DNA of 42,661 bases from Sorangiineae bacterium NIC37A_2. Its GTDB lineage: Bacteria; Myxococcota_A; Polyangia; Polyangiales; Polyangiaceae. The stretch is from positions 5 through 42,665 of the forward strand of contig NASX01000042.1 in assembly GCA_002085155.1 (NCBI GenBank). The letters are read 5' to 3'. The notes below the pieces were generated by a model. The model did no database searches. It worked only from the letters and a program-made list of their open reading frames with translations, and was not told the origin of the DNA. Shown in pieces: positions 15,375-39,439 of this stretch. Every line of letters begins with the position of its first letter. The first letter of the stretch is position 1. The translations under genes were made by a program, and so were the position numbers.

Positions 15375-16505
15375 TCAGGGATTTTCGGCGACGACGTTCG
15401 CGATGGGGAAGTCGACACTGCCGGCCCCGCCGCCCGCCTCGATCAAGATCTTGGCTTCGAGCAAGCTGCCCATCTGCATGCCTTTCTCCTCCCACTTCTC
15501 AAAATGCTCACTGATCGAGATCAGGCCGCAGGAACGCTTCGCCGTGCGAATGCTATAATACTGGGCCCATTCGTTCTCGCCCTGAGCACAACGCGAGCCA
15601 CCGGTCCCCGGGGTCTGGCGCGTGAAGACATCATAGGTTCCGCCGTCGACCATAATCTGTCCCTTCTTTACGGTGTTGCCCGGATCGAAGGGAAGATTCT
15701 CGAAGGTGTCGTCGATGATATACCATTCGACACACGGGTTATTCGACCAGCCGTAGATACCGATATAGGAGAAGGGGCCGCCGGTTCCCGACTTCTTCGC
15801 GACGAATTGGGCGTAAATTTTCCCATATTCGGCGTGGGGTTTGGGCGTCTGGTTCCACCCGCCCCATTCGTAGCCGATGCGTCCGAGGTAGTCGCCGGAG
15901 TTGTTCCAATGAGCGCTGAAGGCAGGCGTCGGGTAGGTGACGAGATCGCCGGTGCCGGTGTTGGACCAAATCTGCCAGGCAAGGTTCCCCGAACCGCCCT
16001 GGCCATTGCCCGAGTGAGTCACACCGCCCGAGGTCGGCATCTCTGCATCACAATCGACGTCCGCCGGATCTCCTGCGGGCCCACCACCGGCTCCCGGCTG
16101 ACCGCCCGCGGCCGCGCCTCCGCTCGAAGCGCCGCCGCTGGGCCCTCCTGGAAAACCGCCGATTCCGGGGAACGACCCTCCCACGTTGAAGCCGCCACCA
16201 GATGCCGGCGCGCCACCGTTTCCAGGGGCGCCGCCGCTCGAGAGTCCACCAGCTCCTGGAGCTCCTCCGCCCGCGCCACCGCTCGGCCCCCCAGGTCCCC
16301 CACCGGACGCAAACGATCCGCCCGCAGGCCCACCTCCGGACGAAGTTCCGCCCGCGGCAGTTCCACCGGCCGAAGTCCCACCCATCCCGTCAGGGGCCGT
16401 GCCTCCGCTTCCCTCAGAGGAATCCGCCGTCCCCCCAGACTCGGAGCAACCTGAAACGATAAGAAGCCCCAGGAGGGCAGCAGAGCAAACAGTAAGTGCG
16501 CGCAT
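15375..16505 (-). CDS. GH11-type xylanase-like lipoprotein with Gly-rich stalk
   Basis: 376 aa from the ATG at 16505, which is chosen over the upstream in-frame ATG at 16607 because it gives a compact signal peptide with lipobox VSGC (Cys20). About 120 residues of Gly/Ala/Ser/Pro stalk follow. The C-terminal ~200 residues match glycoside hydrolase family 11: GYEWGGWN, YIGIYGWSNNPCVEWYIID with the nucleophile Glu260, KGQIMVDGGTYDVF, YYSIRTAKRSCGLISISEHF and a final ILIEAGG with the acid/base Glu356. Both catalytic Glu are therefore present. The usual EYY and EGYQSSG contexts are altered to EWY and EAGGGAG. GH11 enzymes cleave internal beta-1,4-xylan bonds. A cell-attached, stalk-displayed form fits a polymer-degrading surface, but substrate and activity are inferred. 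Confidence 0.87.
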   Translation of the reverse strand: MRALTVCSAALLGLLIVSGCSESGGTADSSEGSGGTAPDGMGGTSAGGTAAGGTSSGGGPAGGSFASGGGPGGPSGGAGGGAPGAGGLSSGGAPGNGGAPASGGGFNVGGSFPGIGGFPGGPSGGASSGGAAAGGQPGAGGGPAGDPADVDCDAEMPTSGGVTHSGNGQGGSGNLAWQIWSNTGTGDLVTYPTPAFSAHWNNSGDYLGRIGYEWGGWNQTPKPHAEYGKIYAQFVAKKSGTGGPFSYIGIYGWSNNPCVEWYIIDDTFENLPFDPGNTVKKGQIMVDGGTYDVFTRQTPGTGGSRCAQGENEWAQYYSIRTAKRSCGLISISEHFEKWEEKGMQMGSLLEAKILIEAGGGAGSVDFPIANVVAENP

Positions 16506-16576
16506 TGACCTCGTACGAGCCCTTTGCTCGTCCCGAGGCCATAGTGGCCGCATGTGGGCAGGCTGAGGCAAACGCC

Positions 16577-16605
16577 GAAAGGGGCACCATGAAGGTGCCC
16601 CTTTC
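16577..16605 (-). terminator. Hairpin terminator after the DUF1592-DUF1552 operon
   Basis: A perfect 12-bp stem (16577-16588 with 16594-16605) with a 5-nt loop begins 55 bp beyond the DUF1552 stop. The stem ends in AAA/TTT pairs but is not followed by a long T-run. It is symmetric, and it separates the operon from the xylanase-like gene downstream. Confidence 0.65.
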
Positions 16606-16659
16606 AATCCGCTGTCACGGAAGTTTTACTTCCTAAGAGAAATCTGAGATTCGGGAACC

Positions 16660-18225
16660 TCATGCCGGCTTCTGCCAGAGGCCCGGGATGGCGGACGCGT
16701 CCCGGTTGAACTGGTTGAAGCGCTCGTTGCCGAGGCCGCCCTTTGGATCGTCAGTCTGCATGAGCGCCTGAGCGCAGGTCAGGAAGAGATCGACCTGGGG
16801 ACGGGTGTTGAAGTTCTGGAAAGTACCGTGCTTGAGCCCGAGCTTCGAGCCGCCGAAGAGGAAGGCCGGCTTCGGGCCTCGCGAGTGGTTCGCCTGGGCG
16901 ACCTCGGTCACGTAAGGGATGACCGTGTGATCGAGGAGGGAGCCACCGTAGGCATCCTTCGTCATCTTCATCTTCACAAGGAACTCAGCGAGCCGCGTGT
17001 TGTACCAGGTCTGTACGTTCGCGAGGAACTCGTAGCGATCCTTGTCAGCTCCTTGGAGGCTCGCGACATCAGCGTCCGCGGCGCCCGAGAGGAAACCACC
17101 ACCATGGCTCACCGGGTGATGCATCGCGATCCGGTTCGGATCGCTCGGCCACATGCCCTTGAAGGAGACGTGGTTCGTGCCCGGCGAGAACTGGAAGGTC
17201 GCGACGCGAATGATGTCGCACTGAAACGCCGCCAAGATGAGCGCGAGGTGCGCTTCGGCGACCGCCTTGTGCACGGCGGAGTCGTCGCTGTTCACGTTCT
17301 CGAGGTACTGGGAGTTCCCCTTGCCGCCCGAGAGATCACGGGAAGGCTCCATCGGCAGCGTGCAGGACGGACCTTCATTGCCGAGCTCGCCGTCTTCGAT
17401 CTGCTTGGCGAGTTGGTTCTCGACCTTACGGATCGCCTCGGCGTGGAGATCGATCTTCGACTTCTCATTCGATGGAGCGAGGCGACCGAGATATTCGAGT
17501 TCGTCGAGGGAGTAGTCGAGGACGCTCTTGCGCATGCGGAGCGCCCGGAGCGCCGCCTCGCGGTTCGCGTCCGTGTCTCCGCCCGGCATGAAGCCGGTGA
17601 AGAGGCTCGCGTAGAGCTGCGCCGGGCTCAGCTGGGGCAAGAGCGGCGTGTACTCGGTGATCTGACCACCCGGGCGAGCCGAGTTAATCTGGCGCGTCGT
17701 GTAGCTATAAGAGAGACACTGCGTCGAGGTCTCGTTCGAATCGACGCGCGCGTCGCAGATGGCGTTGACGTAGCCGACGCCGTCCCGCTGCATACCGGGC
17801 ACGTTCTTCAAGAAGATCTGGTCGAAGGAGGGACCACCGGCGACGCCATCATCAGGCTCACCCGCGTTGTTGCGCGTTCCTGCTGCGCTGCAGCCCGTCG
17901 TCATGAACGGGGTGCCCGCTTCGTGCCCACCGCCGCCCGGACACTGCAGGTGACCGTCGGAGAAGCCGAAGAAGACCGTCATGTCCTCGCGGAGGCCCGC
18001 TTGTTCGAAGGGCAGGATGATCGGCGAAGCGACGTAGTTCGCTCCGCTGCCGGTCGGGAGGAAGCGCCGACGAAGCGTTCCCACGGGGAAGTGCGTCAGG
18101 AGGAAGCGCGAGGGCGATTCGGCGCCCTGCGCCATGGCCTCCATGTTCTTGAGCAAGATCTTGAGACCGAACGCCCCTCCGACTGCGCTGAAGAAAGATC
18201 TACGGGCGAAGCGATATGAGGTCAC
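16660..18225 (-). CDS. DUF1552 protein with Tat-like signal
   Basis: 521 aa from a GTG that overlaps the upstream stop by 4 bp (GTGA), with AAGGAG before it. The N-terminus YRFARRSFFSAVGGAFGLKIL carries a twin-arginine motif, so a folded exported protein is likely. The body matches the DUF1552 family: LLTHFPVGTLRRRFLP, MTVFFGFSDGHLQ, GGHEAGTPFMTTG, a helical DEYLGRL/E-KVENQL region, and an HPVSHGG segment with LVKMKMTKDAYGGSLLDHTVIPYVTEV. This family is related to sulfatase-like DUF1501 proteins and is nearly always encoded beside DUF1592/DUF1588 proteins in Planctomycetota and myxobacteria. The biochemical role is unknown; extracellular polymer processing or electron transfer has been suggested by context only. 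Confidence 0.9.
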   Translation of the reverse strand: MTSYRFARRSFFSAVGGAFGLKILLKNMEAMAQGAESPSRFLLTHFPVGTLRRRFLPTGSGANYVASPIILPFEQAGLREDMTVFFGFSDGHLQCPGGGGHEAGTPFMTTGCSAAGTRNNAGEPDDGVAGGPSFDQIFLKNVPGMQRDGVGYVNAICDARVDSNETSTQCLSYSYTTRQINSARPGGQITEYTPLLPQLSPAQLYASLFTGFMPGGDTDANREAALRALRMRKSVLDYSLDELEYLGRLAPSNEKSKIDLHAEAIRKVENQLAKQIEDGELGNEGPSCTLPMEPSRDLSGGKGNSQYLENVNSDDSAVHKAVAEAHLALILAAFQCDIIRVATFQFSPGTNHVSFKGMWPSDPNRIAMHHPVSHGGGFLSGAADADVASLQGADKDRYEFLANVQTWYNTRLAEFLVKMKMTKDAYGGSLLDHTVIPYVTEVAQANHSRGPKPAFLFGGSKLGLKHGTFQNFNTRPQVDLFLTCAQALMQTDDPKGGLGNERFNQFNRDASAIPGLWQKPA

Positions 18226-20063
18226 TGTGCGTCTCCTTGAGTCCGTTGGCTCAGAACCGCTGAGGTAGCGACTACCTTCACGAGTGAGCTGAATGTTCCG
18301 TCTGTAGCTGCAAATTTGTCCGCGACGCGTTTCACAGCGCAGCTGTCGACGTTCGCGGCACCTGCGCTCACGTCAGCGAGCGCGTAATTGATCAGGTTTT
18401 GGCCGATGCACTTGGCGAAGGCGCCCGACTCAGCGAGGCGCTGAGCGACCTCAACCACGTTATTTGCCTCTCCGCCGCCGATGATATCGGGAAGAGTCAC
18501 GGAGGGATCGATGGGCCGGCCGTGATCGTCGACTTCGCGGTAGCGCCCGATCACGTCAAACCGATCGAGGGCAAGTCCGTAGGGGTCGAAGGTGTGATGA
18601 CACTCGGCGCAAGCAGGCGACATCGCCCGGAGCTCAGCCATCTCCCGTTCCGACGCGTCAGGCATCGTCTCACCGAGCTTCTCGATGATCCCGAGGATCG
18701 CGTCGTCGGGCGGCGGAGTCTCGGTGCAGAGGAAGGCGGCCTTGATCAGGAGGCCTCGACCGACGACCGAGGTGTGGTCAGGACGCGAGCGGTTCGCGAG
18801 GAAGCCCGCCTGGGTCATCAGACCCGTGCGGTTGTCGGGAAGTGTGACCTCGTAGAATGAACCTTCGACGAGCTTCGCCCCGGGCGGCGGGAACATCTCG
18901 AAGCCGTAGACGGGCGCGAGCTTGGCGTCGACGTACCCCTTCTTGGAGGTGAGCAGGTCATTCACTGTCCCGTTCCAGAGCGTCTGGCTGAGGAACAGCT
19001 CCGCCTCACGATACATCGAGCGGCGCATATCGCCGTCGAAGGCGTCATCCTGAATGATCTGCTTCTCGAGGTTCGGGTAGGCAAAGTAGGAGAGCATGGC
19101 GCCCTCGATGTTCACCTTGGCTTCCTCTGTCTTGAGGATTCGCTCGACGTGCGCCGCGATCGTCGCCTCGTCCGAGAGCGCGCCCTGCTCCGCTGCCGCG
19201 AGCAACTGATCGTCGGGCGTGTTGTCCGTGAGGAAGTAGGACAACATGCTCGCGAGCTCATTCTGCGTCAGAGCCGCGCCGCTCGGAGAACCGAACTCGG
19301 TGCGATAGAGGAACTGAGGTGCTTGGAAGATAGCGTAGACGCCATATTGGATGGCCTCCGGCGTCGAGGCACCGACGCCCTTGAGCCCCGTCGTATAGAG
19401 GGTGCTCAGACGAGCCTTCTCATCGGCGGTGAGGGCGCGCCGATAGCCTCTTTCTGCCAGCTTGAGCAGATACTCGAGGGCACAGTCGTCGGTCGGGTCC
19501 GCACCGCAGCCCGTGACCTTGTCGAGGTTCTTGGAGACAAATTCTCCCGCCGCTTGCGCGATGCGGTCCGCCGTATCCCAGCTCTGGTCGGTGAAAGAGT
19601 TTCCTTCACGGGGGCTCTGGAGCGGTGGAAAGGCTCGATGTTGTGCATCGACGAGCTCGAAGGTCTCGACGAGGTTCGTCTGGAGCGACTGGTCGATGAG
19701 GGTCGCGATCGAGTTGGCCACCTGATTGAACGAGAGGCGGACCAAACGCTTCGAAATGATGTTTTCGTCGCCGACGCAGTCGCTCGCCTGGTTTCCGTCG
19801 CCGCCGCCGCCGTTTTGACCGGGATTGCCAGAGCCGGTTCCACCGGAACCGGTTCCGGGATTACCTGTGCCCACACCGGCGCCAGCGCCAGCGCCAGTTC
19901 CGTCAGTGACACGAGCGTCGTCGAAGGTGCCAGTCAGCTCAGCCGACGAGCAGCCTGCGAGCCATCCAAGCGCCACAAAAGGCGCGCATGCGCCCCAGAA
20001 ACTCCGGCGAATTGACCCGGACGGGGCCGTCCGAGCGCGAGGTTCGTTTCTAGCAGAGAACAT
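18222..20063 (-). CDS. DUF1587/1595/1592/1588/1585 multidomain lipoprotein
   Basis: 613 aa. A signal peptide (hydrophobic segment ending LAGCSS) and a Gly/Thr/Asn-rich linker precede five domains in family order. These are DUF1587 (SKRLVRLSFNQVANSIATLI, about 107-126), DUF1595 (ERGYRRALTADEKARL), DUF1592 (ELASMLSYFLTDNTPDDQLL through a long helical part to VYGFEMFP), DUF1588 (TGLMTQAGFLANRSRPDHTSVVGRG) and C-terminal DUF1585. DUF1588 contains SPACAECHHTFDPYGLAL, a CxxCH sequence that could bind heme c. The gene overlaps the DUF1552 gene by 4 bp, so the two are translationally coupled and likely act together outside the cytoplasm. Function is unknown in this family. There is no strong ribosome site at the ATG 20063. 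Confidence 0.92.
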   Translation of the reverse strand: MFSARNEPRARTAPSGSIRRSFWGACAPFVALGWLAGCSSAELTGTFDDARVTDGTGAGAGAGVGTGNPGTGSGGTGSGNPGQNGGGGDGNQASDCVGDENIISKRLVRLSFNQVANSIATLIDQSLQTNLVETFELVDAQHRAFPPLQSPREGNSFTDQSWDTADRIAQAAGEFVSKNLDKVTGCGADPTDDCALEYLLKLAERGYRRALTADEKARLSTLYTTGLKGVGASTPEAIQYGVYAIFQAPQFLYRTEFGSPSGAALTQNELASMLSYFLTDNTPDDQLLAAAEQGALSDEATIAAHVERILKTEEAKVNIEGAMLSYFAYPNLEKQIIQDDAFDGDMRRSMYREAELFLSQTLWNGTVNDLLTSKKGYVDAKLAPVYGFEMFPPPGAKLVEGSFYEVTLPDNRTGLMTQAGFLANRSRPDHTSVVGRGLLIKAAFLCTETPPPDDAILGIIEKLGETMPDASEREMAELRAMSPACAECHHTFDPYGLALDRFDVIGRYREVDDHGRPIDPSVTLPDIIGGGEANNVVEVAQRLAESGAFAKCIGQNLINYALADVSAGAANVDSCAVKRVADKFAATDGTFSSLVKVVATSAVLSQRTQGDAQ

Positions 20064-20303: not shown

Positions 20304-22385
20304 TCACGACAAGGCGCTCGCGCCCGCTTCGGGGGCGAGCGGCAGCCGGATGATCGCCTGCGTCCCGCCCCCCGGGGCGTCGCTGAGCTCGAGAGTCCCG
20401 CCGTGCTTTTTGACGATGGAGTGGGTGATCGAAAGGCCGAGGCCGGTTCCGGAACCGACGGGCTTCGTCGTGAAGAAGGGATCAAGCACCCGTTCCCTGA
20501 GCTCGCTTGGAATGCCGGGGCCCGAGTCCCGAACGACAATGACGTAATTCGAGCCTTCCGCGCCCGCCGAGATATGGATGGTGCCGGAGCCCTCGATGGC
20601 GTCCGCTGCGTTCGAGACGAGGTTCATGATGGCCTGGTTAAGCAGGCCGGGCATGCAGTCAATGAGCTCCGGCGTGCCGATCTCCTGGGTCACGGTGATG
20701 CGATCGGAGAGGCGGTGAGCCAGGATGGTCAGGACCGAGTCGATGCACTCGCGAGTGCTGACTCTCTTTCTTTCTCCTTCGTCGAGGCGGGAGAAAGTCC
20801 GAAGCTTGAGGACGAGGTCCTGGATCCGCTCGAGCCCCATGCGCATCCCCTGCAGGCGATCTTTGGCCTTCCTGAAGCTCGCCTGGGCCGGCTCGAGGGC
20901 CGCCTCCCCGAGCCGCGTTTCAACGTCGCTGAGGCTCGTCTCAGCGGTCTTCAGATGACTCAGGACGAACGCCAGGGGGTTATTGACCTCGTGGGCGACT
21001 CCCGCCACGAGGGAACCGAGTGAAGCCATCTTGGCGGCTTGAACAAGCTTCGTCTGCGTCTCCTGAAGCTCGACGTAGGCTGCCTCAAGGTCGCGGTTCT
21101 TCTGTTCGAGCGCTTCGACGAGCCGAGCCCGGGTCTCGGCGATTTCCCGGGCAGCCCGAGCCTCGGAGGCTTCGATTTCGCTCTTCAGGAGCCGCTCGCG
21201 GACGCGCCTCGTCTCGTCTTCGAACTGGCGGCGGCGGAGCTGAGCCCGGACGCGGGCCTTGAGCACCTCGAGCTCGACAGCTTTCTGAACATAGTCGTCT
21301 GCCCCCGTGGCGAGCGCTTCGAGCATCGACGTGCGATCCTCGCCGGAAGCGAGGAGGATCACCGGAATGTCGCGGAAGGCAGGCGATTCCTTCAACCGGC
21401 GGCACACCTCCTTGCCGTCGAGCCCCGGCATCACTGTCGAGAGCAAAATACAATCGACGCTCTGCACGCCGAGGAGATCGAGGGCTTCTTCGCCCGAGGG
21501 CGCGGCGATGACCTCGTAGCCTTCCCCTCGCAGTGCGAGAGAGAGCTGCTCGCGATGAGTCGCGCTCGGGTCGACCGCCAGAATGCGCTTCGGGGCGAGC
21601 AAGCTCGCCGTTTTTTCATCGGCCTTCGGGACGGCCGCGGCGCGCAGCGCCGCGCCGAGCTTCGCCAAGATGACCTCGAGCTCTTCGTTCTTATGAACAA
21701 ACGCGTCCGCGCCCGCGTCGAGGGCGTTGAGCTCAGCGTCGATGTCCTTCGCCCCCGTGAGGAGCACGCACGGGATCCCCCGCAGCGCCGCATCGAGCCG
21801 GACCCGACGGATCACGGTAGGTCCGTCGATGCCCGGCAAGAGGCCATCGACGACGATGGCGCGGGGACGATGGGCCGCGGCGAGCTTCAGGCCCTCTTCT
21901 CCTGTCTCCGCAGCGATCACGCTGTGGCCCGCTTTGCGCAGTGCCTCGGCCAAAGTTTTCCGGAACGTGCGGCTATCGTCGATGACAAGCAGCGCACCGA
22001 GCTCAGGATCGGCGACGTGGTGGACCTGTAGGAGCTCCCTCACTTTAGCGATCAGGTAGGTCTTGTCGTAAGGCTTGCCGACGTATTCGTCGGCTCCCGC
22101 CCCGAGCCCGCGGATGCGGGAAGCTACCGCTGCTTCGCTCGAGAGCAGGATGACCGAGACGGCTTTGCCGCGCTCGCGTCGAAGTTCGCGCAAGAGCTCG
22201 AGCCCGTCGCCGTCCGGAAGCACGAGATCGAGCACAACGACAGCGATCGGCTTCGTTTCGAGGGCGCGGCGCGCTTCAGCGAGAGTGCCCGAAGGCACGG
22301 CGGGGATACCGGCCTGGTCGAGGGTCTCGACCAAATCCATGCGAACGGTCAAGCTATCATCGACGACCAGAACCCTCTCACTCAC
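20304..22385 (-). CDS. Three-receiver hybrid histidine kinase, output of the chemosensory operon
   Basis: 693 aa, soluble, from a GTG overlapping cheB by 8 bp. Receiver 1 (about 3-120) has the acidic pair VVDD and acceptor Asp53 (VVLDLVLPD). Receiver 2 (about 131-248) has VIDD and Asp180. Receiver 3 (about 267-383) reads AVDP at the acidic pair and ILLSTVMPG at the acceptor site, so Ser316 replaces Asp and this copy should not be phosphorylated. A coiled coil (about 388-450) leads to a HisKA box with His465 (AGVAHEVNNPLAF). The HATPase domain follows, with N box NLVSNAADAIE, G1 DSGPGIP, F box DPFFTTKP and G2 GTGLGLSI. It is the last gene of the operon, in the place WspR or a response regulator would occupy. 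Presumably CheA phosphorylates receivers 1 and 2, which tune the kinase; its own target is not in the window. Confidence 0.93.
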   Translation of the reverse strand: MSERVLVVDDSLTVRMDLVETLDQAGIPAVPSGTLAEARRALETKPIAVVVLDLVLPDGDGLELLRELRRERGKAVSVILLSSEAAVASRIRGLGAGADEYVGKPYDKTYLIAKVRELLQVHHVADPELGALLVIDDSRTFRKTLAEALRKAGHSVIAAETGEEGLKLAAAHRPRAIVVDGLLPGIDGPTVIRRVRLDAALRGIPCVLLTGAKDIDAELNALDAGADAFVHKNEELEVILAKLGAALRAAAVPKADEKTASLLAPKRILAVDPSATHREQLSLALRGEGYEVIAAPSGEEALDLLGVQSVDCILLSTVMPGLDGKEVCRRLKESPAFRDIPVILLASGEDRTSMLEALATGADDYVQKAVELEVLKARVRAQLRRRQFEDETRRVRERLLKSEIEASEARAAREIAETRARLVEALEQKNRDLEAAYVELQETQTKLVQAAKMASLGSLVAGVAHEVNNPLAFVLSHLKTAETSLSDVETRLGEAALEPAQASFRKAKDRLQGMRMGLERIQDLVLKLRTFSRLDEGERKRVSTRECIDSVLTILAHRLSDRITVTQEIGTPELIDCMPGLLNQAIMNLVSNAADAIEGSGTIHISAGAEGSNYVIVVRDSGPGIPSELRERVLDPFFTTKPVGSGTGLGLSITHSIVKKHGGTLELSDAPGGGTQAIIRLPLAPEAGASALS

Positions 22386-23442
22386 CTTCGGCCCCTCCTG
22401 CCTGAAAGAGCGCTACGAGCTTCGATCCAATCTCCGGAAGAGCCCAGACGTGCATTGCGGCGCCGAGCAGGGCCGCTTCCCTGGGCATTCCGTAGACGAC
22501 GGAAGTCGTCTCATCCTGAGCGATCGTGACCGCCCCCGCTTGCCGGAGCGCGAGGAGTCCCGTCGCTCCATCCTTGCCCATCCCTGTGAGCAAACAGGCG
22601 ACAGTCTCCTGTGCTGGCCCGCGCGCTACCGATTCGAACAAGACGTCGACAGACGGCCGACACGAATGGCGCTCGGGGGCGGAGGAGAGCACGAGTCTCT
22701 CATTTTCAACGAGCAGATGCTGTTCCGCGGGGGCGAGCCGAATCACGCCCCTGAGCTGAGCGAGGCGTTCTCCGTTTTTCGCGTAGCGCACCTCCCGCCC
22801 CACCTGCGCCTCGAGCCAATCTCCGAACGCTCTCGCGAAAGGCGCCGAGAGATGTAGCACGATCAAGATCGGAGCTGGGAAGTCCTTCGGCAGCGCGCGC
22901 AAGATCTCAACCAGGGCGCTCGGTCCGCCCGTCGACACACCGATCAAGAGCAGCTTCGGCGCCGCGCCGGGCGCGCGGGGGCTCTCGCTCGGCCGCGGAC
23001 GGTGAGACCAACCGCCCAGCCGCGCGCGCACGTGGGTGATGACCTTCACGCGCGCCACCACGCGCAAGCTGCTCAAAAACTGCCGCTCCCAAACGCCCGG
23101 TTCTTCGTTCCCGCTCGGCTTCTCGAGCACGTCGACGGCGCCCGCCGCCAGCGCATCGTAGGTCTTGAACATCTCGCCGCGATTGAACGAGGCGGAGACG
23201 ACAAGGATGGGCGTCGGGAAGTGCGCCATGATGAACTCAGTTGCCGCCAGACCAGTCATCACGGGCAACATCATGTCGAGGGTGATCACGTCCGGTCGGA
23301 GCCGCTCGCACAGCTCAATAGCGGTCTTTCCGTCACCTGCCTCTCCGACGACCTCAAACCCCGGATCGCTCGAGATGACCTCCACGAGACGGGCGCGTAC
23401 CGTCAGCGAATCTTCCACGACGAGCACTCGAATTTTTGTCAT
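22378..23442 (-). CDS. cheB: Chemoreceptor methylesterase CheB
   Basis: 354 aa. An N-terminal receiver (about 3-120) has acceptor Asp56 (ITLDMMLPVMTG), then a linker, then the esterase domain (about 163-345). The catalytic triad is visible: Ser170 in IGVSTGGPSAL, His197 in IVLHLSAPFARAF (QHM in most CheB), and Asp291 in LLTGMGKDGATGL. It removes methyl groups from receptor glutamates, with activity raised by phosphorylation from CheA. It overlaps cheA by 4 bp (ATGA) and the following kinase gene by 8 bp, so it is translationally coupled on both sides. It corresponds to WspF in the Wsp system. Confidence 0.96.
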   Translation of the reverse strand: MTKIRVLVVEDSLTVRARLVEVISSDPGFEVVGEAGDGKTAIELCERLRPDVITLDMMLPVMTGLAATEFIMAHFPTPILVVSASFNRGEMFKTYDALAAGAVDVLEKPSGNEEPGVWERQFLSSLRVVARVKVITHVRARLGGWSHRPRPSESPRAPGAAPKLLLIGVSTGGPSALVEILRALPKDFPAPILIVLHLSAPFARAFGDWLEAQVGREVRYAKNGERLAQLRGVIRLAPAEQHLLVENERLVLSSAPERHSCRPSVDVLFESVARGPAQETVACLLTGMGKDGATGLLALRQAGAVTIAQDETTSVVYGMPREAALLGAAMHVWALPEIGSKLVALFQAGGAEGE

Positions 23443-25505
23443 CGACCAAGAAGCCTTTCTATCGTGGCGATCAGGCGCTTCTGATCGAAGTCACCCTTGA
23501 CGATATAGTCGCTCGCGCCCGCATTTTTCCCCTTCTCGAAGTCCTCCGGGTCGTTCCTCGACGTGACCAAGATCGCCGGGACCAGCTTGAGCTCCGGATC
23601 TTGACGCGTCAGCGCGACAAATTCGAAACCGCTCATGCCCGGCATCTCGACGTCGACCAGGAACACGCCGTAACGTTTCGCTCGCGCCTTCTCGAGCCCT
23701 TCCTCAGCGGAGGTCGCGAGCTCGACCTCGTAACCCGCTGACTCCAGGATGCTCTGCTCGAGCATGCGGGTCGTCAGCGAGTCATCAATGACAAGGAGCG
23801 GGAGCCGCGGCGCGTCCGCCGGGAGCTCGCCGGGCGCAAATTCGAGGGCAGCGCGCACGAGCTCCCCTGGATCGAGCACCATGCGCGGGTTTCCTTCGCC
23901 ATCGAGGCTCACGTGAGCCACCACGGGCGCTACGAGAGCCCGAAGAGGGACCGGGGTGAGTACGATGTCCATCGTGCCGAGCAGCCCGTCGACCCCGAGC
24001 GCGACCACTTGGCCCAAATCACTGAGTACGACCACCGCGCTCGGAATCTTCCCTGGCTGAGCTTCGGGGCGGCCGAGGGCTCGTTCGAGCGGGAGGAACG
24101 GCACGAGCTCTTCGCCCACCCGGTAGCGATCTCCCTGAACCGAGCGGCGCAGATCGGCGGGATCGATGCGCTTCGTCTCAAGGAGCGTTTCGAGGGGCAG
24201 AGCCACCGTCTGATCCCCGACAAGCACGAGCAGGGCGCGCAAGCTCGCGAGCAAGAGCGAAAAGCGAAGAGCCACCTTGGTGCCCTGGCCCGGTTCGCTC
24301 TCGACGGAGACCTGCCCTCGGAGTTTCGTGCTCACCTCGGCGAGCACATTCAAGCCCACTCCCCGCCCAGCGAGCTGGGTCACCTCTGGGCTCGTCGAAA
24401 CTCCGCCCAACAGGAGCCGCCGAAGCAAGTCCTCTCGACTGATGATCGCGCCTTCGGCGGCCGTGAGCTCACCTCGCTCCATCAGCGCCCGGCGCACGCC
24501 CTCGACGTCGATTCCTCGCCCATCGTCCTCGCAGGTGAAGATCACCTCAGAGCCGCGCCGCTCGACCCCAATGCGAACCGTTCCCGTCCGCGGTTTCCCT
24601 CGTTGAAGCCGTTCGTCCGGCGTTTCGATGCCATGCGCAACCGCGTTGCGCACGAGGTGATGGAAGGCGTCGCGAAGAGGTCCGAGCACCCGCGCCTCGA
24701 GCCTGAGCCCACCGCTCGACAGCTCAAACTGAACCTCCTTCTTCAGAGTATCCGCCGCATCCCGCGCGACTCTCCCGAGAGTCGCAAAGGCCGTGTCGAC
24801 CGGGACCAATCGCAGCCGCGCCGCCCCATCGCGGACATCAGTGAGCTCCTGATCGACGCGCTCAGCGCGATCGACGAGCGCCGCCAAAGTTCGCTCAAAT
24901 CCGCTCTGGAGCTCGAGGGCTAAGTTGAGCTCGGGAGAGTCCGTGCGGGCGTGGCTGCCTCGCCCCACCGAGAGCCGATGTGTCAAAGAGGACGAAAGAC
25001 CTGTGAGGATCCGCAGCTCCTGGAGCTCTCTCTTGAGAGCGGCGACCTGAATGCCCGCGGCGCCAATGGATCGCTCGAGCGCGTCCATCTCATCAGCGTC
25101 TACTCGAATCGAGCGGAAGCTGTCATGAATCAGACTCGCCGCCTGGGCGGATCTTGCAGGTTCCGATGGAGCAGCGGCTGGCTCCGGAGCGGGAGCATCG
25201 AGGGCCTCCACGAGACCTTCAATGCGGTCGATGAGGGCAAAGAGAGCGCGAGCCCCCTCGGGCTCTAGGCCCCGGTCACCTTCACGCAAAGGCGACAGGA
25301 GTTCCTCGATCTGATGGGAGGCCTCAGCGATCTCGAGCTGTTTGACGACCCGCGCCGCGCCTTTCAGCGTGTGCGCGAGCCGGAGCAAACGCAGGACCAA
25401 AGCCGGGTCCCTTGTCCCCTTTTCGAGCTCGAGCGCACCTTGGCCCAAGCCCTCGGCGAGCTCTCGGGCCTCCACCCGAAAATACTTGTAGGGGTCACTC
25501 GCCAA
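23439..25505 (-). CDS. cheA: CheA histidine kinase fused to a receiver
   Basis: 688 aa from a TTG with AAGGA upstream. The order is an HPt domain with phospho-His45 (LAHTLKGAARVVK), then a linker without a recognisable P2 response-regulator-binding domain. A dimerisation helix region (about 130-260) follows. The HATPase has N box HHLVRNAVAHGIE (282-294), G1 DDGRGID and G2 GRGVGL. A CheW-like P5 domain (about 415-555) and a C-terminal receiver with Asp618 (FLVDVEMPGMSG) complete it. This is the WspE/FrzE class. The fused receiver may act as phosphate sink or gate for transfer to CheB and the three-receiver kinase. The gene lies 13 bp after the receptor gene. Confidence 0.96.
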   Translation of the reverse strand: MASDPYKYFRVEARELAEGLGQGALELEKGTRDPALVLRLLRLAHTLKGAARVVKQLEIAEASHQIEELLSPLREGDRGLEPEGARALFALIDRIEGLVEALDAPAPEPAAAPSEPARSAQAASLIHDSFRSIRVDADEMDALERSIGAAGIQVAALKRELQELRILTGLSSSLTHRLSVGRGSHARTDSPELNLALELQSGFERTLAALVDRAERVDQELTDVRDGAARLRLVPVDTAFATLGRVARDAADTLKKEVQFELSSGGLRLEARVLGPLRDAFHHLVRNAVAHGIETPDERLQRGKPRTGTVRIGVERRGSEVIFTCEDDGRGIDVEGVRRALMERGELTAAEGAIISREDLLRRLLLGGVSTSPEVTQLAGRGVGLNVLAEVSTKLRGQVSVESEPGQGTKVALRFSLLLASLRALLVLVGDQTVALPLETLLETKRIDPADLRRSVQGDRYRVGEELVPFLPLERALGRPEAQPGKIPSAVVVLSDLGQVVALGVDGLLGTMDIVLTPVPLRALVAPVVAHVSLDGEGNPRMVLDPGELVRAALEFAPGELPADAPRLPLLVIDDSLTTRMLEQSILESAGYEVELATSAEEGLEKARAKRYGVFLVDVEMPGMSGFEFVALTRQDPELKLVPAILVTSRNDPEDFEKGKNAGASDYIVKGDFDQKRLIATIERLLGR

Positions 25506-25518
25506 AGGAGATCCTTAC

Positions 25519-26997
25519 CTAGCTTGCGCTCGCACGTGCCTCGGACTGCACGACCTTAAAAAGCTCCCGAGAAAGGCTCGCCAGCTCAGAAGCGGTCTGG
25601 AGCGTCTGCCCGGAGCTCGCCTCGCTCTCCCGGCTCGCCTGAGCGACGTTTGCGATAGCCACGTTGACCTGCTCAACCGCTGTCGACTGCTGCTTCGTGC
25701 TCAGCTCGATCTCCCGGGCCGCTTCGGTTGTCGTCGAGACCATGCTGGCAATCTGAGCGAAGGAAGCGGCGACGTCCGCGAACTGTCGCGCTCCCGCCTC
25801 GACCGCTTTGTTGCCGCCTTCGGTCGTCATCACGGTCTTGTTCACCGCAGCGCGAATGTCGTCGACCAGCTGGCGGATCTCTTTCGTCGAAGCGCCCACT
25901 CGGTCGGCCAGCCTGCGAATCTCTTCTGCGACCACTGAAAAGCGTTTCCCGTGCTCGCCTGCTCCTGCGGCCTCGATGGTCGCGTTGATGGCGAGAATGT
26001 TCGTCTGTTCGGCGAGCTCGTTGATCAACTCTAAGATGCCGCCGATTTGCTGGGACTTTCGGCCGAGCTCGAGCATGTGAGAGACGATCAGATCGACCTG
26101 CTTTTGGATGGTCTGGATCGACTCGGTGGTGCGCCCGACCAGCTGAGTACCGCTTCCCGCCGTCTTGGCCGTGTCCTCAGCGATCGTCGAGACCCGCCGC
26201 GCGCTCTCAGCGATCTGCTTTGCCGTCGCGAGCAGCTCGCTGATGGTCGTCGTGATCTCGGCCATGGCCGTCGACTGTTCCTTCGCGCCTGTCACCTGCT
26301 GGTTCGCGGCGGCTTGAAGCTCCGACGACGAAGTCTGAATGTGGCGGACGGCAGAGCCGATTTGTCCCCGCAGAGAGCGTGAGATCCAATAGCCAACGAG
26401 CGCAATGAACACCGTGCCGGCTAGGGTTCCCCAGAGGATCACCTCGCGGGCGGTCTGCGCGCTCTTCTCCGCTTCCTTATGGCGCTGGCCGAGCAGCCGG
26501 AGCTCCTCGCGCTCCATGTCCGCCACGACGACGCGAAGCTCGTCCATCACGCGTTTTCCGGTTCCGTCTAAGATCGCGGCCTGGGCCGCCTCAAACCCTC
26601 CAGCACGGCGAGCCTCGATCGCGCGCAAGAGCTCACTGAGCCGCGCGTCGATGATCGGGCGGGCGCGATCCATGTTTCTTTTCTGAACGGGATTGTCCTC
26701 GGTCAGCTCAAGGAGCTCCTTGAAGTTCTGATCGATGTCTCCCAGAGCCCGCTGGTAGGGCTCGAGGAACTCGTCTTTGCCCGTGATGAGGAAGCCCCTT
26801 TGTCCCGTCTCTGCGTCGACGAGAGTCGAGAGCATGCGCGCAATGCCTTCGCGAACGCTCGACGAGCGAGTCACGAGCCGATCGTTTTCGATCAGGTGCT
26901 CGGTCGTCTGATATCCGAAGAGGGAAACCAGGAGCAGTATCAGCCCTGCAAACGCGAAGCTCGAGGCGAGCTTCTGCCCAAATGTCCATTCACCCAT
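25519..26997 (-). CDS. mcp: CHASE3-domain methyl-accepting chemoreceptor
   Basis: 492 aa. TM1 (about 11-29) and TM2 (about 186-206) flank a periplasmic CHASE3 sensor (about 38-180) with the family signature [15 protein letters not shown] and a later [12 protein letters not shown]. After TM2 a HAMP linker is not obvious, and a helical segment runs straight into the signalling coiled coil. The hairpin tip with [21 protein letters not shown] and [14 protein letters not shown] (about 338-370) is well conserved and should contact CheW and CheA. Gln/Glu pairs such as those in [11 protein letters not shown] are candidate methylation sites for CheR and CheB. Its first codons overlap the cheW stop by 8 bp. 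The ligand is unknown; CHASE3 is a helical sensor of unassigned specificity. Confidence 0.95.
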
Positions 26998-27514
26998 CGC
27001 TTACTGGCCCTTTCGTTCCTTTTCCGGTCGCCGTCTCGCGGACGGACGCGGCGATTGCCGAGACGTCGATCACCGGCCTGAGCTCTCTCTCCCCGCGAAG
27101 CGCCCCCCGGATCCATTTTTGTCCTTCGCCCGAGTAAGCCCCGAGCTCCTCCGGTCGCCGCTCGAGGTGTCCCTCGAGCTCGGAGAAGGCGAGACCGATC
27201 GCCTCGCTCCCCTGACTCAACGCGATCCAACGGGGCGCGGCCCCGGGCCGCGTCTCCCCGAACAGTGTCGCCAAGTCGAACACCGGCACGACCCGTCCGC
27301 GGATTCCAGCCAGCCCGATGAGCGCAGGCGAGCGCGCTGGCACCGGTACGATGCGCGCTCCCGCAGCCGTTCCTCCGAGCTCGCCCAGCGAGAGCGCAAA
27401 GGGGCGTCCCGCAACGCGAATCCCGAGCAGCGGCACGAGCTCGGGTCTCTCCTCCTCAGGCCGCGCGAAAGACTCGTCAAACTCGCGCCTGAGGCGCTCG
27501 ATCTGGTCCCTCAT
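26990..27514 (-). CDS. cheW: CheW scaffold protein (second copy)
   Basis: 174 aa. A charged helical N-terminus (about 1-24) precedes a CheW fold: [53 protein letters not shown], and a C-terminal ELRPVIDV strand. It couples receptor to kinase. The first helix is longer than in the other CheW of the operon. It overlaps cheR by 4 bp (ATGA) and the receptor gene by 8 bp. Two unlike CheW proteins are also found in Wsp (WspB and WspD), where both are needed. The two copies here are only weakly alike, so they probably have different contacts. Confidence 0.94.
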
Positions 27515-29028
27515 TCGAACCTCTCTCCCATCCGCGCAAGCTCCGTTCGACAGAGGCTCGTGAGCGATTCTCGAGAAAAGCCGCCCCCGAAGAGAACGAG
27601 GCGAGAGGGCTCCTCCCGAGCAAGGAGGCCGAGCGCTCGAGTGAGCTCGCTCTGAGCGGTCAGAAGGTCACCGGCGCGCTTGGCGAGCAGGCCTGCGTGC
27701 AGGCGGGGCATCGCTAAGGTCGGATCGAGGTGCGCCGCAATGCTGTCATGTTCCCGAGCGCCCTCTTCGTCCCCCGAGTGCTCCAGGCAGAGGGCCTTGA
27801 GATAGTGAGCGCCGGCGTTCAAGTCGTCCCGAGCGAGCAACTTCTCACACGCGGTCTCGGCAGCCTCAATGTTGCCTCGGTTGGTCATCAGCACCGCAAA
27901 TAGAAGAAGTGCTTCGGGCTCCTCTTTGGCCTCGGGAGAGAGGGCCTCCATGAGCCGAAGCGCCTCGCTGAAGCGCTCCTTTTCCATGAGCGCGAGCACT
28001 TCAGCGAGCTTCTCCTTCCCGAGCGTAGCCGTGAAGAGCGAACTCGGGGGCGCCCCTTCGAGCTCTCCCCTCTTGGCCAGCGCCATCACCCGCTCACTCG
28101 CCGCATGGATCGCTTCAAACCAAGAGATGGTCTCAGACGCCGCAGGCGCCGCCGCGGTACTGTCCTTCTGTTCCGACTCTTCCCGTCCCTCGGTGCGCTC
28201 CTGTTCGGAGGGGCGCTTCTGATAATAGAAGGTCTCGTGGGTGTGACAGAGCTGATAGTCCTGGGTGATCCCCCGCAGGGCCTCGGCGTGCCCCAGGAAG
28301 AGATAGCCTCCCTTTCGGAGCGAAGACGTGAGACGAGTGACCACCGTCTTCATCACATCCGGAGAGAAGTACATCAGGACATTGCGACAGAAGATCGCGT
28401 CGGCCTCGAAACCCTCAAAAGGCCAGACTCCCGGCTCGACCAAGTTCTGATGGAGAAACTTGACCATGGAGCGAGCCGCGGGCAGAAGCTCGTAGCTTCT
28501 TTCGACCTTTCGGAAGTATTTCTTCTTCAGCTCCGGAGGGAGCGCGCGCAAGGACCAGGCGCTGTACCGCCCTTCCTCGGCCTTCTTCAGCATGAGCGCG
28601 TTCAGGTCGAAGCCAACGATCTCGACATCCCAGCGCTCGATGTCCGGAAATCTCTCGCGAAGCGCGATCGCGAGGGTGTAGGGCTCCTCGCCGGAAGCAC
28701 AACCCGCTGAGAGGATTCGTAGCCGACGGCTCCGGGCGGCGGGCTCTGCGACCTGATCCAAGAAGGCAACAATCTGATCGTAGCTGCGATGAAAGTAGGT
28801 CTCCGTGACGGTGAGCAGGGAACCGACCGCCGTGGTCTCCGCTGCACGGTGCTCCGGAGCACGGAGGCGAGAGATATACGCGTCGAAGCCAGAAAGACCG
28901 AGTTCTTGCACCCGAGGCCAGAGAGCTACGCCGAGCTGAACGATGCGATCGGCTTCGAATCCGAAGCCGATCAGATCGCTGACCGCGTCTCGGAGACGTT
29001 CGAGCTCCCCCCTCTCAGCCCCGTTCAT
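27511..29028 (-). CDS. cheR: Chemoreceptor methyltransferase CheR with TPR tail
   Basis: 505 aa. The helical N-terminal CheR domain is followed by the methyltransferase (about 70-275). It has TVTETYFHR, SAM-binding LRILSAGCASGEEPYTLAI (about 102-120), the acidic VEIVGFDLNA motif and FCRNVLMYF. An Ala/Glu-rich linker leads to a C-terminal helical region (about 350-490) with TPR-like pairs, for example ALLLFAVLMTNRGNIEAAE followed by HYLKALCLEHSGDEEGARE. It methylates receptor glutamates. The TPR tail is the WspC/FrzF-type architecture and likely controls docking or activity. It overlaps both flanking cheW genes by 4 bp. Confidence 0.95.
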   Translation of the reverse strand: MNGAERGELERLRDAVSDLIGFGFEADRIVQLGVALWPRVQELGLSGFDAYISRLRAPEHRAAETTAVGSLLTVTETYFHRSYDQIVAFLDQVAEPAARSRRLRILSAGCASGEEPYTLAIALRERFPDIERWDVEIVGFDLNALMLKKAEEGRYSAWSLRALPPELKKKYFRKVERSYELLPAARSMVKFLHQNLVEPGVWPFEGFEADAIFCRNVLMYFSPDVMKTVVTRLTSSLRKGGYLFLGHAEALRGITQDYQLCHTHETFYYQKRPSEQERTEGREESEQKDSTAAAPAASETISWFEAIHAASERVMALAKRGELEGAPPSSLFTATLGKEKLAEVLALMEKERFSEALRLMEALSPEAKEEPEALLLFAVLMTNRGNIEAAETACEKLLARDDLNAGAHYLKALCLEHSGDEEGAREHDSIAAHLDPTLAMPRLHAGLLAKRAGDLLTAQSELTRALGLLAREEPSRLVLFGGGFSRESLTSLCRTELARMGERFE

Positions 29029-29450
29029 GACGCGATCGACTCCGCACTCACCGCGTCGAACAGCTTGGTCGCCTCGAGAACCAGGACAAGCTCTCGATCG
29101 ACTACAGACAGCGCCGCCAGGGTCTCACCGCTCGCACGAGCCACAAGTGGCGGCAAAGAGAGAAGGGAGCTCGGATCTGGTTCGACAACCTCGACCACAC
29201 TGTCGACGGCGAGCGCGATGCTCCGCTCTCCGAGGTCGAGGGTGACGAGGCGCTGCAGCTCTCCCTCACCGTCTCGGCCGATGAGCGCACCCAGATCTAA
29301 GACGGGCACCGACTTACCCCGAATGATGGACAGCCCGAGCACCGCCGGTGGAGCGTCCTTGAGCACTTCGAGGGGCCTAGGGCGCATCGTCTCCCGCACG
29401 TAGGAGAGCGGAATGCCCACTCGATGGTGACCCGCAGTCACCAGCAACAT
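29025..29450 (-). CDS. cheW: CheW scaffold protein (first gene of the operon)
   Basis: 141 aa from the ATG at 29450. The frame extends to 29516, but GGAGGGG seven bases before 29450 and the N-terminus MLLVTAGHHRVGIPLSYV favour the shorter form. The CheW fold is clear: VLGLSIIRGKSVPVLDLGALIG, then LDLGERSIALAVDSVVEVVE, then LAALSVVDRELVLVLEATKLF. It opens the operon, 228 bp after the ferritin-like gene, so the promoter should lie in 29451-29678. The 3' end overlaps cheR by 4 bp. Confidence 0.93.
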   Translation of the reverse strand: MLLVTAGHHRVGIPLSYVRETMRPRPLEVLKDAPPAVLGLSIIRGKSVPVLDLGALIGRDGEGELQRLVTLDLGERSIALAVDSVVEVVEPDPSSLLSLPPLVARASGETLAALSVVDRELVLVLEATKLFDAVSAESIAS

Positions 29451-29627
29451 CTTGCCCCTCCGATGCATCCCTGGTCGCCTGGCCAAAGGGTACGGCTCCT
29501 GGCTTTCGGCGGGCAAGTTCGCCCGGCCTTCGTCCGATTCCTGCGACTTTCCGCGAGTCGAGCCCTCGGCTGCGTCTCACCAAAACTTCGCCTGACCCGC
29601 AAAGCCTCCCTTTCCGCACACCGGCGA

Positions 29628-29678: not shown

Positions 29679-30413
29679 TCAAAGATCGAAGGGTACGGTC
29701 TCTCGCTCCTGAGCTGCCGCGAGCCAGGAGCGAACCAACGCGAGGTGATCAGACTCGTCTCGCACGGCCTGCTGGACGTCTTCGAGCTCAACAGTTTCTT
29801 TTCCCTCAACGAGCAATTCCAAGAGCGTCTCCCACCCCTCATTGTCGGTCAGCTCCGCGAGCAGCGCTGCCTCGAGAGACTGGACCAAGGTTGTCCTCGG
29901 GTCGACCGCAACGGCCAAGATGCCCGCAGACATCGTCGCGTGGAGGTTCGCCGAAGGCGTGACCACCGTCGGATCTCCGCCGATGCGGCGGATGATGCTG
30001 TCGATGAGACGGAAGTGAGAATACTCTTGAAGGACAATCCGCTCGATCTCTTCGATCGTCGGACCACCGGCGAACTCCCCCTCGTGGCGCAGCTTGCCGA
30101 GGATAGCCTCGTAAAGCCGAGCCCCGGTTCGCTCGAAAGCGAGCCGCTCTCCCAGCTTGTCTATGAGCTGGAACGGCTGGTTTCCGAGGAGCTCACCAGC
30201 GACCGCCTTGACGGCACCCTTGATGCTCGGAGGCGGCGGCACACTGCCTACCGGATCAGACTCCTCCGCGTACCGAGCGCGAACCTCGGCGACAGGAGTC
30301 GCATCCGACTCGGCTACGACCGAGAAGGTCTGTGCTGCTTCGAGCATCGCCTCGGCGCGCCCCTTGGACGTGGCGATGCCTGTACGATTGATGCCAATTT
30401 CTGTGGTTTCCAT
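29679..30413 (-). CDS. Ferritin-like domain protein
   Basis: 244 aa. The ATG at 30413 is preferred over a TTG at 30434 because AAGGAG lies 10 bp before it. After about 80 low-complexity residues, the C-terminal 165 residues show a four-helix bundle with di-metal-type ligands: ERTGARLYEAIL, then EEIERIVLQEYSHFRLI (ExxxH), then EAALLAELTDNEGW, then QQAVRDESDHLALV (ExxH). This matches ferritin-like/rubrerythrin-fold proteins but not ferritin proper. No signal peptide is seen. It follows the larger ferritin-like gene by 176 bp on the same strand and precedes the chemosensory operon. A role in metal or redox chemistry is inferred; storage is unlikely for so short a bundle. Confidence 0.8.
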   Translation of the reverse strand: METTEIGINRTGIATSKGRAEAMLEAAQTFSVVAESDATPVAEVRARYAEESDPVGSVPPPPSIKGAVKAVAGELLGNQPFQLIDKLGERLAFERTGARLYEAILGKLRHEGEFAGGPTIEEIERIVLQEYSHFRLIDSIIRRIGGDPTVVTPSANLHATMSAGILAVAVDPRTTLVQSLEAALLAELTDNEGWETLLELLVEGKETVELEDVQQAVRDESDHLALVRSWLAAAQERETVPFDL

Positions 30414-37926: not shown

Positions 37927-38834
37927 TCACCCCCATGCAACGCCCGCTCGCCACGTCCCCGGTGCGGGGGTGCCATTCGCCGCAGCCGCGAGTGGTGCGT
38001 CCACGAACGCTCGCACCGCCGCGACCGTTTCGGTGAGGGTGCCGGCATCGCGCACGCCCGCCTTGCGCACGAAGCCGGACCACTGCGTTTTCTTGGTGGG
38101 GTCCTCGGCGAATGCGGGCGTGAGTGCGACCGGCGTGGTTGTCGGCAGCGTCGTCTTCCGGCGCTCGAAGGTCGCGCGGATCGCCCGGGCGAGCAGCTCA
38201 CCGTCGAAGTTGAAGTCCCGCGCGAGCACGGCCACGTCGTAGAAGTCCTTCATCCGGCTGTTGGCCATGCCGAGCTGCACCATTGCCTCGAGCTTCTCGG
38301 CGATGACGGTCTCCCGCGGATAGGCGCGCAGACGCGGCGCCGGGAAGTCGAGCAGCGGCGGGAACTCGATGACGCTCGCCTCCGGCGTGATCGCGTCGCC
38401 GAAGCCGACGTCGACCTGAAGCCGCACCTGCGCGTTCGTGATGCGGGCGACGAGCTCGACGCGCACGCCGCCGTACTCTTGCTCTTCGCGGATAAGGCCG
38501 ACCGCGAGGGACCCGTGGTCGAAGCGCACGCCGTCGTCGGTCACGTCGAGCGCGAGCACCTCGGCGAAGACCTCGCGCACGTGGTCGACGGCCGGGTCGC
38601 CGGAGCCGAGCAGGTCGAGGTCGCGGGTCGCTCGGTGCGGCTTGCCCGTCCAGAGCGTGAACAGCGCCGCGCCCTTCACCGCTGCGCGTGCCGTGACGAT
38701 GCGAGCCGGAAGAGCAGACGCTCGTTCGCGTAGCGCGTGAGCACGAGCTGAAAGTCCTCGCTCCGCTCGCGAGACAGGCGCGAGAGGCGTGCGCGCACCG
38801 ACGCGCCGATATCCTTGGGCGGCGTCTTCGTCAC
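37927..38834 (-). pseudogene. abiEii: abiEii, frameshifted type IV toxin
   Basis: The protein resembles AbiEii/DUF1814 nucleotidyltransferase toxins but lies in two frames. The N-terminus (GTG at 38834) reads PPKDIGASVRARL, ERSEDFQLVLTRYANERLLFRL and SRHAQR, then meets a TGA at 38676-38678. The rest is in another frame: VKGAALFTLWTGKPHRATRDLDLLG with the metal-binding DxD, then VIAEKLEAMVQLGMANSRMKDFYDVAVLAR with the conserved Lys/Asp motif. Comparison with the family (RFxxKGA) suggests a 7-base loss near 38680, between short repeats. Unless translation is recoded, no active toxin is made. The GTG overlaps the antitoxin stop by 4 bp (GTGA), the usual abiE coupling. A sequencing error is the alternative. 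Confidence 0.85.
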
Positions 38835-39439
38835 GCGAGCGCCTCCAGGTACGGCCGCATGAACACGTAGATGCGATCGGCGCGGGCGGCCTCGACGAGC
38901 ACATCGATGCTGCCCTTGCGCTTTCGCAGGTAGTCCTTCAGCGCCGCGAGCGCGACCTCGAGCCCGACGTGCCGGCGGAAACGGAAGCAGTCGGCGACAG
39001 TCTTCGCGGGCGTGGTGAGCTGCACCTTCACGCCGTCGACGACGCGCATCTCGATGCCGTGCTCCAGGGCTTTCCCGCTTGCACGGACGACCTCGAGCGT
39101 CGGCGACGTAACCTTCGGCATCCGCGCGTGTCGGTCGATGAGCACCCACACCGCGTGTGGCGCCTCGCTCGTCATGCCGTGGACCTGCAGCGCGCTGAGC
39201 AGGCAGATGACCGCGTGCGGGACGCGCTTGCTCACCTCGGCGAGCGTGCTCAGCTCGGTCATCGGTGCGTCGACGAGCCGGTAGAGGCCGCGGTCCACCT
39301 GCTCGAGCAGGCCGCGGTCGCAGAGCCGCTTGAGGTAGGCCCGCGGAATGCCGGCGTCGTCGAGGTCCCTAGCGCGCACCGGCCCCTGCCGGGCGAGCCG
39401 GAGGAGCGTGGTGGTCTTGCTCGGGACGGCAGGCGACAT
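38831..39439 (-). CDS. abiEi: AbiEi antitoxin/repressor of type IV TA system
   Basis: 202 aa. A winged-helix N-terminus (TLLRLARQGPVRARDLDDAGIPRAYLKRLCDRGLLEQVDRGLYRL, about 11-55) precedes the AbiEi C-terminal domain. Typical parts of that domain are VICLLSALQVHGM, HAVWVLIDRHARMP, VQLTTPAKTVADCFRFRRHVGLEVALAALKDYL and RPYLEAL. AbiEi both represses its own promoter and neutralises AbiEii without binding it directly. The frame is intact although the partner toxin is broken, which is the order of decay expected for a toxin-antitoxin pair. No ribosome site is seen before the ATG, so a very short or leaderless message is possible. Confidence 0.9.
   Translation of the reverse strand: MSPAVPSKTTTLLRLARQGPVRARDLDDAGIPRAYLKRLCDRGLLEQVDRGLYRLVDAPMTELSTLAEVSKRVPHAVICLLSALQVHGMTSEAPHAVWVLIDRHARMPKVTSPTLEVVRASGKALEHGIEMRVVDGVKVQLTTPAKTVADCFRFRRHVGLEVALAALKDYLRKRKGSIDVLVEAARADRIYVFMRPYLEALA

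Follow-up and report, generated by a model that had tools for sequence, protein, structure and literature searches.

A 42,661-nucleotide stretch of the contig NASX01000042.1 of Sorangiineae bacterium NIC37A_2 (assembly GCA_002085155.1; the whole stretch is called the window hereafter) carries on its minus strand a seven-gene chemosensory operon whose last gene encodes a histidine kinase with three N-terminal receiver (REC) domains. This operon is read here, with a probability of roughly 0.7, as a chemosensory pathway of the alternative cellular function (ACF) type, the output of which is a receiver-controlled histidine kinase acting on a regulator encoded elsewhere. The reading is carried by the gene content and order, the catalytic residues, the loss of the phosphate-accepting Asp in REC3, the near-invariant sites of REC1 and REC2, a kinase core of another family attached in heptad phase and the conservation of a kinase output among homologous operons.

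In the pathway proposed, the CHASE3 receptor and the two CheW proteins would control the autophosphorylation of CheA, and CheR-TPR and CheB would adapt the receptor. From phospho-CheA, phosphate would reach CheB, REC1 and/or REC2 of the output kinase and the C-terminal receiver of CheA itself, which is probably a sink. REC3 would be a structural adaptor, the alpha5 helix of which runs unbroken as a coiled-coil helix into the DHp domain, so the state of REC1 and REC2 would turn the NtrB-like kinase on or off, and this kinase would in turn act on a response regulator encoded elsewhere.

The operon and its relatives

The seven genes are all on the minus strand, in the following order of transcription:

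29025..29516, minus strand: first cheW (Pfam CheW, 3.7e-24); start uncertain (TTG 29516, ATG 29468 or ATG 29450)
27511..29028, minus strand: cheR-TPR methyltransferase (CheR, 9.4e-49; TPR_19, 2e-6)
26990..27514, minus strand: second cheW (CheW, 1.1e-14)
25519..26997, minus strand: chemoreceptor, a CHASE3 sensor between two hydrophobic stretches and an MCP signalling domain (CHASE3, 5.9e-42; MCPsignal, 2.4e-37)
23439..25505, minus strand: cheA, Hpt (His45), HATPase, CheW and REC (Asp618), by Pfam
22378..23442, minus strand: cheB, REC and methylesterase (CheB_methylest, 2e-53; Response_reg, 2.9e-19)
20304..22385, minus strand: output kinase, (REC)3-coiled coil-HisKA-HATPase, 693 amino acids (Response_reg three times, 3.5e-64; HisKA, 2.9e-6; HATPase, 1.3e-25)

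Pfam confirmed the domains, and the E-values of the main matches, 1e-6 to 1e-64, are such that these are not due to chance. The junctions between successive genes measure -4, -4, -8, +13, -4 and -8 bp; the original prediction, made from the letters alone, of seven genes with these domains, joined by 4- or 8-bp overlaps and one 13-bp gap, thus agrees with the coordinates. It placed the end of the operon at 29450, which is an in-frame ATG inside a longer frame open from TTG 29516, so the true start of the first cheW is uncertain. The hydropathy of the chemoreceptor peaks near amino acids 6-28 and 185-205, and His45, Asn287, Asp327, Gly380/382, the REC residues Asp574/575/618 and Lys670 of CheA are invariant in ten homologues. 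A CheY gene was found neither in the gene list nor in the Pfam scan of the operon, which bears out the predicted ACF-type part list without CheY; both a multidomain response regulator as the output and CheR-TPR, the marks of ACF systems as defined in PMC3447774, are present.

Near full-length CheA matches (40-53% identity) with neighbouring che genes occur in about 30 of the 184 genomes of the order, but the operon is absent from both of two same-genus genomes (best CheA E-values, 2e-45 and 1e-42), which makes for a patchy distribution. When 84,980 species were scanned with a CheA alignment, 80 named loci emerged, many of them in metagenome-assembled genomes, so that single taxon names are uncertain; they were assigned to Myxococcota (including Anaeromyxobacter and Polyangium), Actinoplanes, Dactylosporangium, Acidobacteria, Planctomycetes, alpha-, beta- and gammaproteobacteria and others. 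The output gene is readable in 75 operons and encodes one to three receivers and a kinase in 70 of them; the remaining five comprise three double receivers without a kinase (Polyangium) and two genes cut by the contig end. GGDEF was found at the output position in none of the 75, and a single-receiver gene lies directly behind the output gene in nine of the 70 loci having at least 600 bases there. A GGDEF or CheY output consistently encoded with homologous operons, which had been named beforehand as the result that would speak against the proposal, is therefore not what these operons contain. For this operon family a kinase at the output position is the norm, as is already known in the literature.

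A third kind of output is seen in Polyangium and large-genome relatives (L185:13222-14316, L191:13241-14338 and L198:13252-14346; L072, L083, L085, L087, L089 and L094), in which the same operon ends in REC-REC without a kinase. These double-receiver proteins have at the C-terminus a conserved, helical tail, about 70 amino acids long, for which Pfam gave no convincing match, and a fold search of one such protein matched the receivers and found no match for the tail.

Receivers and kinase core of the output protein

The output kinase is divided as follows:

22023..22376, minus strand: REC1, phospho-Asp53 (Asp kept in 83/84 homologues; signature DDSLTVR)
21642..21995, minus strand: REC2, phospho-Asp180 (Asp kept in 81/84; S-x-T-x-R signature in 65/74)
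21234..21587, minus strand: REC3, predicted pseudo-receiver with Ser316 at the Asp position (Asp kept in just 59/84 homologues)
20898..21272, minus strand: continuous helix, amino acids 372-496, of REC3 alpha5, coiled coil and first DHp helix with catalytic His465 (AlphaFold2, mean predicted local distance difference test score 84.8)
20334..21020, minus strand: NtrB/HPK4-like kinase core (AHEVNNPL box, HATPase), a putative exchanged cassette with its junction near amino acids 429-437 (tail tree, His position)

REC1 (Asp53) and REC2 (Asp180) are intact by sequence. In REC3, the second acidic residue is replaced by Pro (VDPS) and the phospho-Asp by Ser316 (CILLS-TVMPG), so REC3 is predicted to be unable to accept phosphate and just two receivers, REC1 and REC2, would be phosphorylatable; the three receivers originally predicted hold as folds and not as phosphate acceptors. 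The Asp of REC3 is lost in 25 of 84 distinct triple-receiver kinases, being replaced by Gly, Glu, Ala or Ser in a manner varying by lineage. Relatives in Actinoplanes and Dactylosporangium (L187, L194, L197, L204, L206-L209, L212, L219, L222, L223, L226 and L227) have the operon core, and Gly or Ala stands at the REC3 Asp position in all that were read.

The receivers which CheA would address are marked by a signature following the acidic pair, D-D/E-S-x-T/S/V-x-R. Among the homologous loci it is present in the receivers of CheA (75/75) and CheB (58/60), in REC1 (71/75) and in REC2 (65/74), and absent from REC3 (0/67), from the following single receiver (0/9) and from other downstream receivers (0/39). 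CheB is a textbook target of CheA, and the signature which REC1 and REC2 have in common with it suggests that these two are CheA targets as well. Co-variation with the Hpt domain of CheA points weakly the same way, to REC1 and REC2 and not to REC3 (partial r, 0.10 for REC1, 0.10 for REC2, 0.08 for the CheB receiver and -0.11 for REC3).

In six loci (L150, L167, L176, L180, L182 and L218), a single-receiver gene of 146-154 amino acids lies directly behind an output kinase of the HDLR type described below, often followed by a REC-kinase gene. This single receiver differs from the CheA-type receivers in its signature (DDNKSD or similar) and is likely the next step of the cascade.

Close homologues of the output kinase are 57-58% identical to it up to residue 436 and divergent beyond, where their tails are those of another kinase family (SVSHDLRAPLR). 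A tree of the tails gave three families, HDLR (a clade with support of 100/99), HExRTP and HExNNP; the HExNNP tails of the window and of three other genomes (G150, G152 and G147) fall into a single clade (98/87), whose sister is the stand-alone receiver kinase L009 (100/100). In the receiver tree, on the other hand, the window and G150, a genome of the same family, are sisters (100/100) amid mostly HDLR-tailed arrays. Homologous receivers and coils thus carry kinases of different families.

The attachment keeps a register. Counted from the conserved Lys of REC3 to the catalytic His, the spacing is 74 or 81 residues in 33 of 34 HDLR kinases and 74, 81, 88, 95 or 102 in 17 of 17 HExRTP/SP kinases, all of which are 4 mod 7, and it is 97 (6 mod 7) in all four HExNNP output kinases; the 6 mod 7 phase recurs in five of six further REC-HExNNP kinases of the loci, mostly with a spacing of 48. 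These counts come from related sequences and are not independent, yet there are several length changes, all in sevens. In the AlphaFold2 model, REC3 alpha5, the coil and the DHp helix form one helix (372-496), and the best match of the model in the PDB by E-value is LvrB (8vc9), a Rec-controlled kinase. The layout of REC, coiled-coil helix, DHp and CA domains, with a helix length changing in heptad steps, is therefore present in the output kinase. By these alignments and trees, the kinase of the window belongs to an NtrB-like family, differing from that of most homologues, and is joined at a precise junction in the heptad phase of that family.

It is about an even bet that the tandem receiver array and coiled coil are a conserved adaptor plugging CheA arrays into interchangeable kinases of at least three families, each in its proper heptad phase, and that in the lineage of the window the exchange rewired the array to a new regulon and reduced REC3 to a fixed structural coupler. 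As to a single origin of the operons with HExNNP tails, the tails form one clade, and the CheA tree sets the window and L066 apart from L076 and L078. A single clade is not rejected there by an approximately unbiased test (p 0.128), and most of the receiver tree lacks resolution; by the CheA, receiver and tail trees, the kinase may have been exchanged once or several times, and in either direction. An extended output kinase, with one or more further C-terminal receivers after a HELRTP kinase, was seen in L135, L136 and L137, which are from one family of the same phylum.

Precedents and alternative readings

The layout itself is found widely, and a precedent studied biochemically is the Che3 system of Rhodospirillum centenum. 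It likewise has a CheA with a C-terminal receiver, two CheW, an MCP, CheR and CheB, and its second kinase bears receivers at the N-terminus, one of which (the second REC of CheS3) lacks the Asp. There, CheA3-D663A phosphorylates REC1 of CheS3, this step turns CheS3 off, and CheY3 is phosphorylated by CheS3~P only (PMC3868531). As in that system, a second kinase with a phosphorylatable N-terminal REC is encoded alongside a CheA-REC in the window. CheS3, however, combines two receivers with a PAS domain and a kinase of the HWE type, whereas the window kinase has three receivers, no PAS domain and an NtrB-like core, and the R. centenum cluster encodes the single-domain target CheY3, of which the window operon has no counterpart; the two systems are likened by their parts. 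LvrB of Leptospira also consists of a receiver, a coiled-coil signalling helix, DHp and CA, and its receiver is phosphorylated by another kinase; phosphorylation forms the alphaS coiled coil, frees the catalytic domain and turns the kinase on (PMC13269768). LvrB differs in having one receiver and an upstream kinase, LvrA, instead of CheA, and no chemosensory genes are named there.

A likeness in gene order and parts is also seen in che6 of Myxococcus xanthus, which comprises, by locus tags, CheW6a (6947), CheR6-TPR (6948), CheW6b (6949), Mcp6 with CHASE3 (6950), CheA6 with a receiver (6951) and CheB6 (6952), with no CheY listed (PMC3945109); order and parts equal those of the window. No M. xanthus orthologues were found in the one family searched, which is possibly not Myxococcaceae. 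The gene at the output position of M. xanthus che6 is presumably the kinase gene socD. In Anaeromyxobacter terrae and A. soli, the operon includes a kinase of the (REC)3-HDLR type, unlike the NtrB-like kinase of the window, and che6 was reported to be conserved in A. dehalogenans (PMC2330069). In cheR-TPR clusters, about 40% of the response regulators were reported in 2012 to carry a kinase module (PMC3447774); these ACF clusters are alike in their multidomain regulators but are a survey category and not one defined system.

The R. centenum precedent, the receiver signature and the conservation make the originally predicted flow of phosphate from CheA into the receivers of another kinase the best reading. 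Several points nevertheless weigh against it. Both the signature and the co-variation are indirect tests, the latter with small partial correlations and too weak to decide alone; the signature also occurs in other receivers of the loci (16 of 79), 13 of the 16 being the CheB-like EDSLTVR or EDSATMR, and Arg at its alpha1 position is found in many receivers. CheA could mainly dump phosphate into its own receiver and CheB. In addition, no biochemical or genetic data came to light for the operon or for any close homologue, and no partner regulator adjoins the kinase. No receiver outside the operon was found among the window open reading frames scanned, some short ones lying outside the scan, and a genome search for a regulator like the single REC behind homologous HDLR kinases gave general receiver matches only and no candidate (the best, at 6e-18 and 36% identity, falls in a 689-amino-acid open frame). 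Furthermore, REC phosphorylation inhibits CheS3 (PMC3868531) but activates LvrB (PMC13269768), so the control may have either sign here.

An alternative is that CheA does not signal through the output kinase, whose receivers would instead serve as a sink or take phosphate from the kinase domain of the same protein, as in a reverse hybrid. RodK of M. xanthus, as cited in PMC3868531, has three receivers and phosphorylates the third, and the receiver of CheA itself is probably a sink. This alternative is unlikely, because REC1 and REC2 bear the signature of the CheB and CheA receivers, unlike the regulators behind the kinase, and because the receivers are alike whichever kinase family is attached, which makes the attached kinase an improbable partner for them; moreover, the kinase of CheS3 failed to phosphorylate its own REC1 (PMC3868531).

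The original prediction had a kinase in place of the diguanylate cyclase of a Wsp-like operon. Read as a history, the kinase would have replaced WspR in a Wsp-type system whose CheA output formerly went to cyclic di-GMP. The part list is indeed identical (two CheW, CheR-TPR, CheA-REC, CheB and no CheY), and a Mesorhizobium plasmid has an operon in the Wsp order, receptor first, with a PleD-type (GGDEF) regulator at its end. However, in contrast to the Wsp order mcp-cheW-cheR-cheW-cheA-cheB-regulator, the receptor gene of the window does not stand first but lies between the second cheW and cheA, directly before cheA as in Azospirillum lipoferum. The CheA clade of the window family is separated with 100/100 support from the Wsp-type CheAs of Mesorhizobium and Cupriavidus, in a tree of few references which does not include Pseudomonas WspE and for which the output of the Cupriavidus operon was not read. 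The output of the window is a (REC)3-kinase instead of the REC-GGDEF of Pseudomonas Wsp; the alternative to a kinase seen among the 75 homologous operons is a double receiver, also without GGDEF, and even a few receptor-first relatives (L086 and L093) have a (REC)3-kinase as output. The genome has ten GGDEF genes, none of them on the contig of the window. A Wsp system with a swapped output was rejected on the gene order, the CheA clade and the 0/75 count of GGDEF, and such a derivation is held to be very improbable.

A strict phosphorelay, in which one phosphate would pass from the His of CheA to a REC, to the kinase His and to an external receiver, is the least credible of all, as is the originally predicted relay in that sense, for although REC-to-His transfer is chemically known via Hpt domains, the output kinase is equipped with ATPase motifs of its own and an ordinary HisKA but no Hpt, and the receivers of CheS3 and LvrB act allosterically, switching the kinase without passing the phosphate on.

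Neighbouring genes and significance

Upstream of the operon and on the same strand, positions 29679-30413 encode a protein of about 245 amino acids that has no Pfam match; its ATG is preceded by an AGGAG-like site. Directly after the operon, starting 240 bp behind the output kinase gene, lie a GH11 xylanase-like gene and two genes with DUF1552 and DUF1585/1588/1592/1595 (15375-20063, minus strand), and an AbiEii-type nucleotidyl transferase, of a toxin-antitoxin or phage defence family, is encoded at 37927-38904, also on the minus strand.

As far as the literature examined shows, subscription journals being mostly outside it, the new findings are the breadth of the operon family, the receiver signature, the recurrent loss of the REC3 site and a kinase exchange that keeps the heptad phase. 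They suggest a route for the rewiring of chemosensory arrays, in which the input side and the receivers stay and the reading kinase is exchanged at a heptad-phased coiled-coil junction, and they give a testable design rule, namely that the phase is kept while the kinase is swapped. The signal is predicted to be carried by REC1 and REC2 and not by REC3. In this way, the little-studied che6-like systems, from myxobacteria to Actinoplanes, are placed beside the biochemically studied Che3 system of R. centenum.

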